Below are positions 3,678-62,639 of a DNA stretch of 64,000 nt, one piece after another. The position numbers and the translations under genes were made by a program. The notes beneath the pieces are model-generated. The model saw only the letters and a program-made list of their open reading frames with translations. It did not search any database and was not told the DNA's origin. Source of the stretch: Paralysiella testudinis (GTDB taxonomy: Bacteria > Pseudomonadota > Gammaproteobacteria > Burkholderiales > Neisseriaceae); NCBI RefSeq assembly GCF_016894345.1, contig NZ_CP069798.1:62001-126000 (forward strand), given 5' to 3'. Numbering within the stretch: position 1 is the stretch's first letter; each line of letters opens with the position of its first letter.

Positions 3678-3731
3678 CAATCCAATAGCGGGTTGTCCCA
3701 TACTTCAGGCTGCCTGAAAGCCCCAGCCATA

Positions 3732-3779: not shown

Positions 3780-5126
3780 TTATTTCAATACCACTTCCAC
3801 ACGGCGGGCTTCGGCATTATTGCCCTTGCCTTCGGTAGAAGCCGGTTTTTCCAGCTGGATTTTATCGGCAGGAGCGCCCAAGGCCACCAGTGCGTCTTTC
3901 ACTTTCTGTGCACGGTTTTTGGCCAGCTCGGCATTTTGCGCCGCATTGCCGGTGCTGTCGTGGAAACCGGAAATCACCACGCTTTTGCCTTCTTTGGCAC
4001 CGGCCACAATGGCAGCCAGCTGGTCGTTGGTGTTGGCGGCCACATCAGCCTTACCGCTGGCAAAGTACACTTTAACCACGCCGTTTTCCACCACGGTTTT
4101 GGCACTGTCGTCAACAACAGCGGCAGATGCAGCAACCGGTGCCGATGCCGCCGCAGGTGCGGATGCCGCAGCGGGTTTAGCCGCTTCAGTCGGTGCAGCG
4201 CCATCCTTGTTCGACAAGCCCCACACATAAGCGGTCATGATGTGCAGTTTGTCTTTATCAAGGAAGTGACCCCATGCCGGCATCTGGTTGTGTCGGCCAC
4301 TGGTGATGGTTTCGATAATGGCTTTTTCACTACCGCCCCACAGCCACACATCATCCGTCAGGTTCGGACCCAAGCCTTTAATGCCTTTGCCATCCGGGCC
4401 ATGACAAGCGAAGCAGTTGGCCGGGCCGCCATGAAACAGGGCATTGCCGCGTTTGGCGCGATCGGCATCATGCTGCTTGCCGGATAAAGACATTACATAG
4501 TTGGCCACGTCTTTTACCCGCTCTTCACCCAATGCCGGCCCCCAAGGCGCCATCACGGCCACACGGCCTTTTTCAATGGTTTCTTGAATTTCAGCCGGTG
4601 TACCGCCCCACAGCCAATCGTGGTCGGTCAAGTTGGGGAAGCCTTTGCTGCCTTTGGCATCGGAGCCGTGACACTGAATACAATAGGTGTCGAACATGTT
4701 TTTACCGATACGCTGGGCTTGCGGGTCTGCGGCTACCTGCTCAATCGGCATTTGGCCAAATTTGGCATACAAGGGGCCGTATTTGTCGTTGGCGGCAGCC
4801 ACTTCTTTTTCGTATTGGTTGGTACTGGTCCAGTTTAATACGCCTTTGTAGTCGCCAATGCCGGGGTACATCACCAGATAGCCCACACCGAAAATGGTGG
4901 TCAGCACAAACAGGTAAAACCACCAACGCGGCAACGGGTTATTGTATTCCTCAATGCCGTCCCAAGCGTGACCCATGGTTTCTACTTCACCATCGGCACC
5001 CCGTTTGGGCGTTTTGGTTTTGTTTTGGGAAATCAGCAACCAAGCCAAACCCAAAAAACTGAGCAGGACGATGGCCGCAATGTATATATTCCAGAAATTA
5101 CTGGTAAATTGGGATGTTGTGTTCAT
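3780..5126 (-). CDS. ccoP: cbb3 cytochrome oxidase dihaem subunit CcoP with C-terminal OmpA-like domain
   Basis: Subunit III of the high-affinity cbb3 terminal oxidase, passing electrons to CcoN. Two membrane helices (about 13-32 and 66-87) are followed by two cytochrome c domains with haem motifs CIQCH (149-153) and CFACH (238-242) and likely axial methionines in MAPW (192) and MPAW (282). An Ala/Pro linker (310-337) then leads to an OmpA-like module (346-448) with VYFASGKADV, N-x2-L-x3-RA-x2-V and the terminal RRVEVVL pattern. This fusion is unusual; a dihaem CcoP normally ends near residue 310. It is the last gene of ccoNOQP and has a terminator downstream. Confidence 0.93.
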   Translation of the reverse strand: MNTTSQFTSNFWNIYIAAIVLLSFLGLAWLLISQNKTKTPKRGADGEVETMGHAWDGIEEYNNPLPRWWFYLFVLTTIFGVGYLVMYPGIGDYKGVLNWTSTNQYEKEVAAANDKYGPLYAKFGQMPIEQVAADPQAQRIGKNMFDTYCIQCHGSDAKGSKGFPNLTDHDWLWGGTPAEIQETIEKGRVAVMAPWGPALGEERVKDVANYVMSLSGKQHDADRAKRGNALFHGGPANCFACHGPDGKGIKGLGPNLTDDVWLWGGSEKAIIETITSGRHNQMPAWGHFLDKDKLHIMTAYVWGLSNKDGAAPTEAAKPAAASAPAAASAPVAASAAVVDDSAKTVVENGVVKVYFASGKADVAANTNDQLAAIVAGAKEGKSVVISGFHDSTGNAAQNAELAKNRAQKVKDALVALGAPADKIQLEKPASTEGKGNNAEARRVEVVLK

Positions 5127-5154: not shown

Positions 5155-5328
5155 TTATCCGCGCGTGTTCGACGTGTCGTCCGGGGTATCGGGATCGTCA
5201 ATGATGCGTTGCGCCTGCTCGGGGTAGGTTTTTTTGGCTTTACGGCCATAGGCATAGAGCAAAATCAGCATAAACGCCAGAAAACAGCCTACGGTATAGA
5301 GCACACGCGCCAGATTCAAATCACCCAT
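5155..5328 (-). CDS. ccoQ: cbb3 oxidase small subunit CcoQ
   Basis: A 57-residue protein, MGDLNLARVLYTVG at the start, with one membrane helix (about 7-26) followed by a charged tail (YGRKAKKTYPEQ) and an acidic C-terminus. This is the size and layout of CcoQ/FixQ, which stabilises the cbb3 complex. It starts five bases after the ccoO stop codon and ends 28 bp before ccoP, so position and content agree. The YGRKAKK segment after the helix fits the positive-inside rule. Confidence 0.88.
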   Translation of the reverse strand: MGDLNLARVLYTVGCFLAFMLILLYAYGRKAKKTYPEQAQRIIDDPDTPDDTSNTRG

Positions 5329-5333
5329 GATGG

Positions 5334-5945
5334 TTACCTTACGTTTTTCAGTGCCAAGCCTAAGCCTTGCAGGTAAGCGATTACCGCTTCCAATTCAGAC
5401 TTGCCGTCCACGTCTTTGGGCGCATTGGCAATTTCTTCGTCGGTATACGGCACGCCCACGGTACGCAGCGCGGTCATGTGTTTCTGAATGGTGGCACCGT
5501 CAACGGTGTTGCGCGCCAACCACGGGAAAGCAGGCATATTGGACTCAGGCACCACGTCACGCGGGTTGAGCAAGTGGATGCGGTGCCATTCGTCTGAATA
5601 GCGGCCGCCCACGCGCGCCAAATCCGGGCCGGTACGTTTAGAGCCCCATTGGAACGGGTGGTCGTATACCGACTCACCGCCCACGGAGTAGTGGCCGTAG
5701 CGCTCAGTTTCGGCGCGGAAGGGACGAATCATTTGCGAGTGGCAGTTGTAGCAGCCTTCGCGAATGTAGATGTCACGTCCGGCCACTTGCAAGGCGGTAT
5801 AGGGTTTTACCCCGGGTGCCGGTTCGGTTACCGATTTTTGGCCGAACAGCGGCACCACTTCAATCAAAAGACCCACGCTGATGACCAAAAGCGTAAAGAC
5901 AATCAGGTAGCCCACTTTTTCTTCAACAAGTTTCTGGAGACTCAT
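5334..5945 (-). CDS. ccoO: cbb3 cytochrome oxidase monohaem subunit CcoO
   Basis: The 203-residue subunit II of cbb3 oxidase has an N-terminal membrane anchor (about 12-35) and a periplasmic cytochrome c domain with the haem motif CYNCH at 65-69, within [19 protein letters not shown], which is nearly invariant in CcoO. Pro-rich NMPAFPW near residue 140 holds the probable axial methionine. It lies between ccoN and ccoQ in the same operon. Confidence 0.96.
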
Positions 5946-5963: not shown

Positions 5964-7403
5964 TTAGTGGTGCTGGGTTTGCGAAACCGCCGGAATTTCG
6001 GCATCCACGGCTTTGCCTGCAGCAATGGTACGGTACACGTTGTACGCCATCAGTAGCATGCCGACCAGATACAGCAGCCCACCTAAGAAGCGGATTTGAT
6101 AGAAAATCATGCTTTGTTTCACTGACTCAACAAAAGAATAGGTCAAGGTGCCGTCGTCGTTCAGCGCACCCCACATCAGGCCTTGCATCACACCGGAAAT
6201 CCACATAGAAGAGATGTAGAGCACGATGCCGATGGTGGCAATCCAGAAATGCGCTTCAATCAATTTAATCGAGTACATTTCTTTGCGGCCGAACAGGCGC
6301 GGAATCAGGTAGTAAATAGAACCGATGGTGATGAAACCCACCCAACCCAACGCACCGGAGTGAACGTGGCCTACGGTCCAGTCGGTGTAGTGGCTCAAGG
6401 CATTCACCGATTTGATTGACATCATCGGGCCTTCAAAGGTAGACATACCGTAGAAAGACAACGACACCACCAAGAATTTCAGAATCGGGTCGGTGCGCAG
6501 TTTATGCCAAGCGCCAGACAAGGTCATGATGCCGTTAATCATACCGCCCCAAGAAGGCGCAAACAGAATCAGCGAGAACACCATGCCCAAAGACTGAGTC
6601 CAGTCCGGCAGCGCGGTGTAGTGCAGATGGTGCGGGCCTGCCCACATATAGGTGAAAATCAACGCCCAGAAGTGCACCACTGACAAACGGTAAGAATACA
6701 CCGGGCGGCCGGCTTGCTTGGGCACAAAGTAGTACATCATCCCCAAGAAGGCAGCAGTAAGGAAAAAGCCCACCGCATTATGGCCGTACCACCATTGCAC
6801 CATGGCATCGATGGCACCGGAGTAAATCGGATAGGAAACGGTGGCGCTGGCCGGTACTGCCAAGCTGTTGACAATGTGCAGCAAAGCCACTGCCAAGATA
6901 AAAGCGCCATAAAACCAGTTCGCCACATAAATATGCTTGATTTTACGGGTGGCGATGGTGCCGAAGAACACAATCGCGTAGGCCACCCACACCAAGGTAA
7001 TCAAGATATCAATCGGCCAAATCAATTCGGCGTATTCCTTGCCTTGGGTCAGCCCCAATGGCAGCGTAATCGCCGCCAGCACAATGACCAGCTGCCAGCC
7101 CCAAAAGGTGAAAGCCGGCAAAATATTGCCACCAAACAGGCGTACATTACAGGTGCGTTGCACGATGTAGTAAGAGGTAGCGAACAAACCGCAGCCGCCA
7201 AAGGCAAAAATCACTGCATTGGTATGCAGCGGGCGCAAGCGGCCGAAGTGAAACCACGGGCCGATGTCGGTCAGGTTCATGATATTGGGGGCAAACAACT
7301 GGGCGGCGATAATCACCCCCACCAACATGCCCACAATACCCCAAACTACAGTCATGACGGCAAATTGCCGCACCACTTTGTAGTTATAAGTTTGCGTTTC
7401 CAT
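5964..7403 (-). CDS. ccoN: cbb3 cytochrome oxidase catalytic subunit CcoN
   Basis: Haem-copper oxidase subunit I, 479 residues, reducing O2 at a haem b3-CuB centre under low oxygen. The twelve expected membrane helices are visible, as are metal-ligand motifs such as [13 protein letters not shown] (CuB/His-Tyr region), [10 protein letters not shown] and [10 protein letters not shown]. The start METQTYNY is chosen because GGAGAG lies eight bases upstream; a longer reading to 7511 adds 36 residues unlike the family. First gene of ccoNOQP. Confidence 0.96.
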
Positions 7404-7668
7404 GAAGACTCTCCATTCAAAATGGCTTGGATATTTTGGCGCCGCTTGAAAACCAATGCAAAACAAGGCATTGATATAAGCGGCATTTTCTAAACACAAC
7501 GCCTTAACCATGAGTTTACAAAAGTATGAGGCGTTTTAACCCGGCTATTCTAATGCAAATCCCCCCTGCTCACCAGACAATCCCTCAAGAGCCTGCCTTT
7601 ATTTACACAGAGAATCCATTGCCAATAACGGATTTTTGTAAGAATATCGGTTTTACCGCTGCGGTGAT

Positions 7669-61895: not shown

Positions 61896-62639
61896 ATGAC
61901 CTCCAGCCCTTCTTCAGGCAGCCTACTCAGCGTACACGGCCTGCAAAAAAGCTTTAAAAACCGCCAAGTGGTTAAAGACGTGGGTTTATCCTTGGCCAGC
62001 GGCGAAGTGGTGGGCTTGCTCGGCCCCAACGGCGCCGGTAAAACCACCAGCTTTTACATGATTGTGGGGCTGATTGCCGCCGACGCCGGCAGCATCACCC
62101 TTGATAATCAGGAAATCCGCCACCTGCCCATCCATGAGCGCGCCCGCTTAGGCTTAGGCTATCTACCGCAAGAAGCCTCGATTTTCCGCAAAATGACTGT
62201 GGCGCAAAACATCCGCGCCATTCTGGAAATCAGCGGTCGCAACAAAGCCGAAATGGACGCCGCACTCAACACCTTGCTGGCCGATCTGCACATCGAGCAC
62301 CTGCGTCACAACAGCGCCCTGTCGCTTTCCGGCGGCGAGCGCCGCCGCGTGGAAATCGCCCGCGTACTGGCCATGCAGCCGCGCTTTATTCTGCTGGACG
62401 AGCCCTTCGCCGGGGTAGACCCGATTGCAGTCATCGACATCCAAACCATCATTGCCTTTTTGAAACAGCGCGGCATCGGCGTACTGATTACCGACCACAA
62501 CGTGCGCGAAACCCTGCGCATTTGCGACCGCGCCTATATCATCAACCAAGGCAGCGTACTGGCCACCGGCCACCCGGAGGAGCTGGTGCAAAACGAAGAA
62601 GTGCGCGCCGTGTATTTGGGTGAAAATTTCGACTATTAA
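61896..62639 (+). CDS. lptB: LPS export ABC transporter ATPase LptB
   Basis: The 247-residue ATPase powers LPS extraction with LptFG. Walker [16 protein letters not shown]-loop YLPQEASIF, signature [12 protein letters not shown], Walker [13 protein letters not shown] and H-loop DHNVRE are exactly the LptB type. A small uptake-sequence-derived insert ([10 protein letters not shown]) begins the protein. lptF and lptG are not in the window. Confidence 0.96.

Follow-up and report, generated by a model that had tools for sequence, protein, structure and literature searches.

A cbb3 oxidase subunit with an OmpA-like tail in Paralysiella testudinis: a probable tether of the respiratory enzyme to the cell wall

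The last gene of a cbb3-type oxidase cluster of Paralysiella testudinis encodes a subunit III (CcoP) whose chain continues well past its two cytochrome c domains, which raises the question of what this added C-terminal part is, where it came from and what it does for the enzyme. The window analyzed here is a stretch of 64,000 nucleotides of contig NZ_CP069798.1 (forward-strand positions 62,001 to 126,000), to which all plain coordinates given below refer. The cluster, ccoN-ccoO-ccoQ-ccoP, lies on the reverse strand: ccoN (5964..7511, TIGR00780, 835 bits; its true start codon is perhaps below 7511) and ccoO (5334..5945, TIGR00781, 321 bits) were placed on the same strand as ccoP by profile matches, and a ccoQ-like small ORF of 57 aa (5155..5328) was recognized by eye in the sequence. 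The ccoP gene (3780..5126) encodes a protein of 448 aa, in which both halves, CcoP and OmpA, were found by Pfam and NCBIfam profiles in one intact frame. Its core (residues 45-308, 4203..4994), composed of a FixP_N part (E=6e-24) and two cytochrome c domains, scored 365 bits with TIGR00782 against a cut-off of 180. Two CxxCH motifs are present, CIQCH (residues 149-153, 4668..4682, within the Cytochrome_CBB3 match) and CFACH (residues 238-242, 4401..4415), and no third one, by which a tri-haem CcoP is recognized, occurs past residue 242. Scanning for promoters and terminators added nothing to this picture. Just downstream of ccoP lies an overlapping pair (3704..3718) of DNA-uptake-type repeats; the corresponding 12-mer, AGGCWGCCTGAA, has 61 copies in the window (1428-63345), with 0.04 expected.

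The C-terminal part was assigned to the OmpA family by both profile and structure searches, each of which gave clear matches. PF00691 matched residues 354-433 of the whole CcoP with 48.6 bits (cut-off 27.2, E=1e-12) and the isolated tail with 52.8 bits (E=5e-14), so that at the level of sequence the match is far above chance. The AlphaFold2 model of the tail (residues 344-448, 3783..4097), built on an alignment of 43 tails, reached a pLDDT of 88 and a pTM of 0.82, and a Foldseek search of the PDB with this model, which has the beta/alpha fold of OmpA C-terminal domains, retrieved OprF-C, PA0833, Pal and the Acinetobacter baumannii OmpA (AbOmpA) structures 3td3, 3td4 and 3td5, with E-values from 2e-8 to 2e-7 and TM-scores of 0.7-0.8; 3td4 and 3td5 represent the A. 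baumannii domain with diaminopimelate and with a pentapeptide. In the model of the full-length protein, the core resembled the cbb3 CcoP chains 8snh_G and 3mk7_C (47% identity, Foldseek), and the tail resembled OmpA domains. A sequence-only reading of this locus had proposed just such a module behind an Ala/Pro linker at residues 310-337, and both held up, the linker being an Ala/Ser/Pro-rich segment of residues 309-343 (4098..4202) with pLDDT below 50 at residues 313-337; in relatives its length varies from 24 to 85 aa. The motifs listed in that reading, VYFASGKADV, N398-x2-L-x3-R405-A-x2-V and RRVEVVL, are all present in the sequence. The subfamily of the tail carries an FA motif, where many OmpA domains have FD, and its loop before RRVEV is shorter.

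The residues by which OmpA domains contact peptidoglycan are retained in the tail. The HDSTG segment, suspected earlier to contain the diaminopimelate-contacting Asp, does provide this residue, D390 in GFHDSTG (codon 3957..3959), which HMMER aligns with the Asp of the GYTD motif in PA0833, YiaD and OmpA and which is equivalent to Asp271 of AbOmpA. The Arg is R405 (KNRAQ, codon 3912..3914), the equivalent of Arg286, at the distance of 15 residues that also separates Asp271 and Arg286 in AbOmpA. These two AbOmpA residues contact diaminopimelate and are both kept in PA0833, the OmpA-like domain of which binds peptidoglycan in vitro (PMC5974059). PA0833, which shares the same Asp and Arg, is among the best matches of the tail in both sequence and fold. 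Instead of the binding Asp and Arg being lost throughout the homologues, an outcome that the sequence-only reading had considered, D390, N398, K403, R405 and R441 are invariant in all 64 Neisseriaceae tails, fused and stand-alone together. The tail is under purifying selection, with omega of about 0.1 (median dN/dS of 0.105 versus 0.087 for the cytochrome domains, 23 pairs). The tail is like the C-terminal domain of AbOmpA, OprF-C, Pal and PA0833 in fold, in the diaminopimelate-contacting Asp and Arg and in their spacing, whereas those domains occur in an outer-membrane or lipoprotein context and the final loop of the tail subfamily is shorter than theirs.

Our main reading, to which we give a probability of roughly three in four, is that a normal cbb3 CcoP is joined through a flexible linker to a peptidoglycan-binding OmpA domain, which would tie the oxidase loosely to the overlying cell wall. 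Considering its modelled fold and its residues, the tail very probably binds peptidoglycan. The cbb3 oxidase would remain in the inner membrane with its two haem domains on the periplasmic face, and the tail would extend outward on the flexible Ala/Ser/Pro linker; D390 and R405 would hold the diaminopimelate of stem peptides, and through this grip the oxidase would be loosely anchored beneath the wall. We infer that the purpose is holding or positioning the cbb3 complex. The same idea of a tether to peptidoglycan had been put forward in the sequence-only reading and is supported by the OmpA fold together with the conserved Asp and Arg, which make binding plausible, while the spacer toward the outer membrane that was offered beside it gained no specific support. 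Such a tether would work as MotB and TssL do, but would hold a respiratory oxidase. In MotB and in TssL/TagL, an OmpA-type domain fixes a membrane machine to peptidoglycan, and, as in CcoP, an inner-membrane anchor, a periplasmic linker and an OmpA-type domain are combined in one chain; MotB and TagL are also among the fold matches of the tail in Foldseek. However, those proteins are parts of stators and secretion systems, whereas the cargo of CcoP is a respiratory oxidase and its N-terminus has no MotB or TssL domain.

How widespread the tail is was determined by a survey of 83 Neisseriaceae genomes, of which 67 gave a match and 66 had a readable ccoP, the remaining one (G076) being matched solely via a stand-alone protein. 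The OmpA tail was found in 37 of the 66 genomes, a third haem in 18 and neither in 11. The carriers of the OmpA tail include Stenoxybacter acetivorans, Bergeriella denitrificans, Alysiella crassa, an Eikenella MAG, ruminant-gut MAGs and many Neisseria, among them N. iguanae, N. weixii, N. dentiae and N. wadsworthii. Among the 11 genomes with neither tail, ccoP of G001 is cut off by the end of its contig, and that of G028 is damaged in its frame and, as in N. meningitidis, interrupted by an in-frame stop codon ahead of the third haem. In G010, an early ccoP stop is followed by the decayed remnant of an OmpA domain (L115, G010:C1:1948000-1952500), for which the truncation of the tri-haem gene in N. 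meningitidis is a parallel. Among the matches listed for 250 Burkholderiales genomes, no OmpA-tailed CcoP was found outside Neisseriaceae. Two long CcoP frames (G084 and G145) were discarded as tailed candidates, their extra length being upstream read-through.

Parsimony on the tree of the CcoP core has the OmpA tail already present in the common ancestor of the Neisseriaceae CcoP proteins and requires eight losses, at most seven of which are real since one is the G001 contig edge, and two replacements by the third-haem (haem-3) domain. Judging from these sequences, the OmpA tail is probably ancestral in the CcoP of the family. The sequence-only reading had suggested that this branch may have used the site of the third haem for a different extension; the order appears to be the reverse, as the OmpA tail is both the commoner one and the ancestral one by parsimony. 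In the best core tree, the replacements fall on the N. gonorrhoeae/sicca group (n=15) and the N. elongata group (n=3), in which the haem-3 tail probably replaced the OmpA tail separately and within the same linker. The gonococcal haem-3 linker resembles that of the OmpA-tailed N. weixii (GKAPxKKAEPA), and the N. elongata one resembles that of the OmpA-tailed N. wadsworthii (TDTENxLGxKAA). In the tree of haem domains, the N. elongata-group tails each stand beside the cytochrome c5 of their own group, and a single origin of the haem-3 domain is rejected there (p-AU 3e-6), while the core tree does not reject an arrangement with all haem-3 genomes forced together (p-AU 0.24). The haem-domain tree and the clade-specific linker sequences point to two haem-3 events, though gene conversion from cycB might produce the same appearance. 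The tri-haem CcoP of N. gonorrhoeae and relatives is comparable to the protein of the window in subunit and linker position, and its tail likewise derives from another periplasmic protein, in that case cytochrome c5, but it is a c-type haem domain aiding NirK, whereas the window tail has an OmpA fold without CxxCH. The tri-haem gene was described as a unique fusion with complete distribution within Neisseria, with OmpA unmentioned (Aspholm et al., 2010, PMC2924362); in contrast, many Neisseria are OmpA-tailed in our survey and the haem tail occurs in two clades.

The third haem of CcoP supports the activity of NirK (PMC2924362). All 18 haem-3 genomes possess NirK, and none of the 17 readable copies (that of G040 is masked) bears a C-terminal cytochrome c domain, which is present in 16 of the 23 OmpA-tail genomes having NirK. 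Given the role of the third haem, the haem may have moved from the own tail of NirK to CcoP. The pattern is clean but comprises two independent contrasts only, and we treat it as a lead. In the genome of the window itself, the copper nitrite reductase ends in a cytochrome c domain (L381, G000:C1:2639000-2641900).

As for the source of the tail, the same genome encodes a stand-alone protein (L002) of 189 aa, for which a single transmembrane segment is predicted and whose OmpA domain shares 61% identity with the tail of CcoP; relatives of this protein occur in 27 Neisseriaceae genomes of the survey. By sequence, the tail probably came from, or shares its source with, such a one-TM OmpA protein. 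The tail tree unites 29 fused tails in one clade (100/100) and places those of the window, of Stenoxybacter and of six rumen-type genomes with the stand-alone proteins; a single clade of all fused tails is not rejected (p-AU 0.43). This tree is compatible with two separate fusions as well as with a single fusion followed by gene conversion from the paralogue. An OmpA domain very near to the Neisseria CcoP tails is also carried by a DUF937 protein of some Neisseria (L182, L183, L211), and this closeness may be another sign of exchange among paralogues.

Beyond Neisseriaceae, the profile of the tail matched proteins in 62 of 399 Burkholderiales genomes at E<=1e-14, with mostly weak matches elsewhere in the class. 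The identities of the host proteins were checked with Pfam on representatives. In 22 of the 399 genomes, the subfamily tail is on the C-terminus of an H+-pyrophosphatase (L194, L197, L198, L200, L201 and L227 among them). In 10 genomes, it follows the cytochrome c domain of cytochrome c oxidase subunit II (CoxB; L215-L219, L224, L248, L252, L264, L269), and in 7 it is found on the tetrahaem cytochrome of the photosynthetic reaction centre (PufC; L214, L220, L225, L260, L272, L274, L276). One ammonium transporter has the subfamily domain on its N-terminal side (L226:1940-3871), and the domain was also detected in two RND adaptor proteins, in DUF937 proteins and in many one-TM proteins. The binding residues are largely kept: Asp in 21 and Arg in 22 of 22 H+-pyrophosphatases, both in 10 of 10 CoxB, and Asp in 5 and Arg in 6 of 6 PufC, the tail of L214 PufC being devoid of the Asp. 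The subfamily is separated from ordinary OmpA domains by a branch with SH-aLRT support of 99, in a tree of few alignment columns with three long-branched ordinary rows misplaced, and we propose to regard the CcoP tail as a member of a separate OmpA subfamily, found mostly in betaproteobacteria. A more remote parallel is PsaB of Gloeobacter photosystem I (PDB 7f4v chain aB, residues 758-864), which matched the tail profile with E=4e-7. Like CcoP, it is a core subunit of a membrane complex that converts energy and ends in an OmpA-type domain, but the host protein and the phylum are different and the match is distant; no functional test of this domain was found in the literature searched. The same literature, which excludes most subscription journals, yielded no papers on OmpA fused to CcoP, CoxB, PufC or H+-pyrophosphatase.

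Against these data, other explanations of the tail can be weighed. It could be a docking domain whose OmpA fold binds a periplasmic or outer-membrane partner rather than peptidoglycan and thereby brings the oxidase near its electron donors or outer-membrane proteins. The Pal-TolB and YfiB-YfiR complexes among the fold matches show that some OmpA folds have protein partners, and the third-haem tail that took the place of the OmpA tail serves electron transfer to NirK (PMC2924362), so that the tail site of CcoP may have served partner contact earlier as well. Docking alone, however, would not need the Asp and Arg that contact peptidoglycan, nor the intervening Asn, to be invariant, and the module occurs also on H+-pyrophosphatase and the ammonium transporter, which have no redox partner in common; we regard this explanation as unlikely. 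Several points count against the tether: the tail was lost in several lineages and is hence dispensable over evolution, its subfamily has the FA motif and the shorter loop mentioned above, and N. meningitidis and N. gonorrhoeae tolerate insertions behind the second haem domain (PMC2924362), although the genes concerned carry the haem tail. The repeated loss would suit instead a cap for assembly, stability or glycan display, which would protect CcoP or bear a glycosylated linker, any peptidoglycan binding being residual.

The gonococcal CcoP is in fact O-glycosylated at sites in its Ala/Ser/Pro-rich linker (PMC2924362). One Wzy_C-family candidate is present in the genome of the window, but a Wzy_C match alone does not identify an oligosaccharyltransferase, and the invariance of the binding residues and the low dN/dS speak against a cap, to which we give rather little credence. 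That the tail is a decaying passenger or an artefact of annotation or assembly seems hardly credible: the remnant behind the early stop in G010 and the several CcoPs without a tail would agree with decay, but the frames are intact in 37 genomes, omega is near 0.1 over the pairs compared, and the binding site does not vary. An artefact or a frameshift fusion is ruled out by the full-length fusion in those 37 genomes, which belong to several genera and cannot share one assembly error.

The tether, as the preferred reading, can be extended, tentatively and at somewhat less than even odds, to a dedicated betaproteobacterial OmpA module of the inner-membrane side that would fasten cbb3 oxidase, CoxB, PufC and H+-pyrophosphatase to the wall and organize respiration and photosynthesis in space, the Neisseriaceae anchor being ancestral and traded at least twice for a haem domain in lineages with NirK lacking its own cytochrome domain. 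The recurrence of the module on unrelated energy-converting proteins raises the interest of the CcoP fusion. Respiratory complexes are usually pictured as diffusing freely in the inner membrane; if the extended reading is true, a wall anchor carried by the oxidase and by three further proteins of energy conversion would imply that such complexes are held in place in some bacteria. For Neisseria, the history of CcoP is revised, since the third haem in the gonococcal group seems to have taken the place of an older wall anchor, a replacement that probably occurred more than once.
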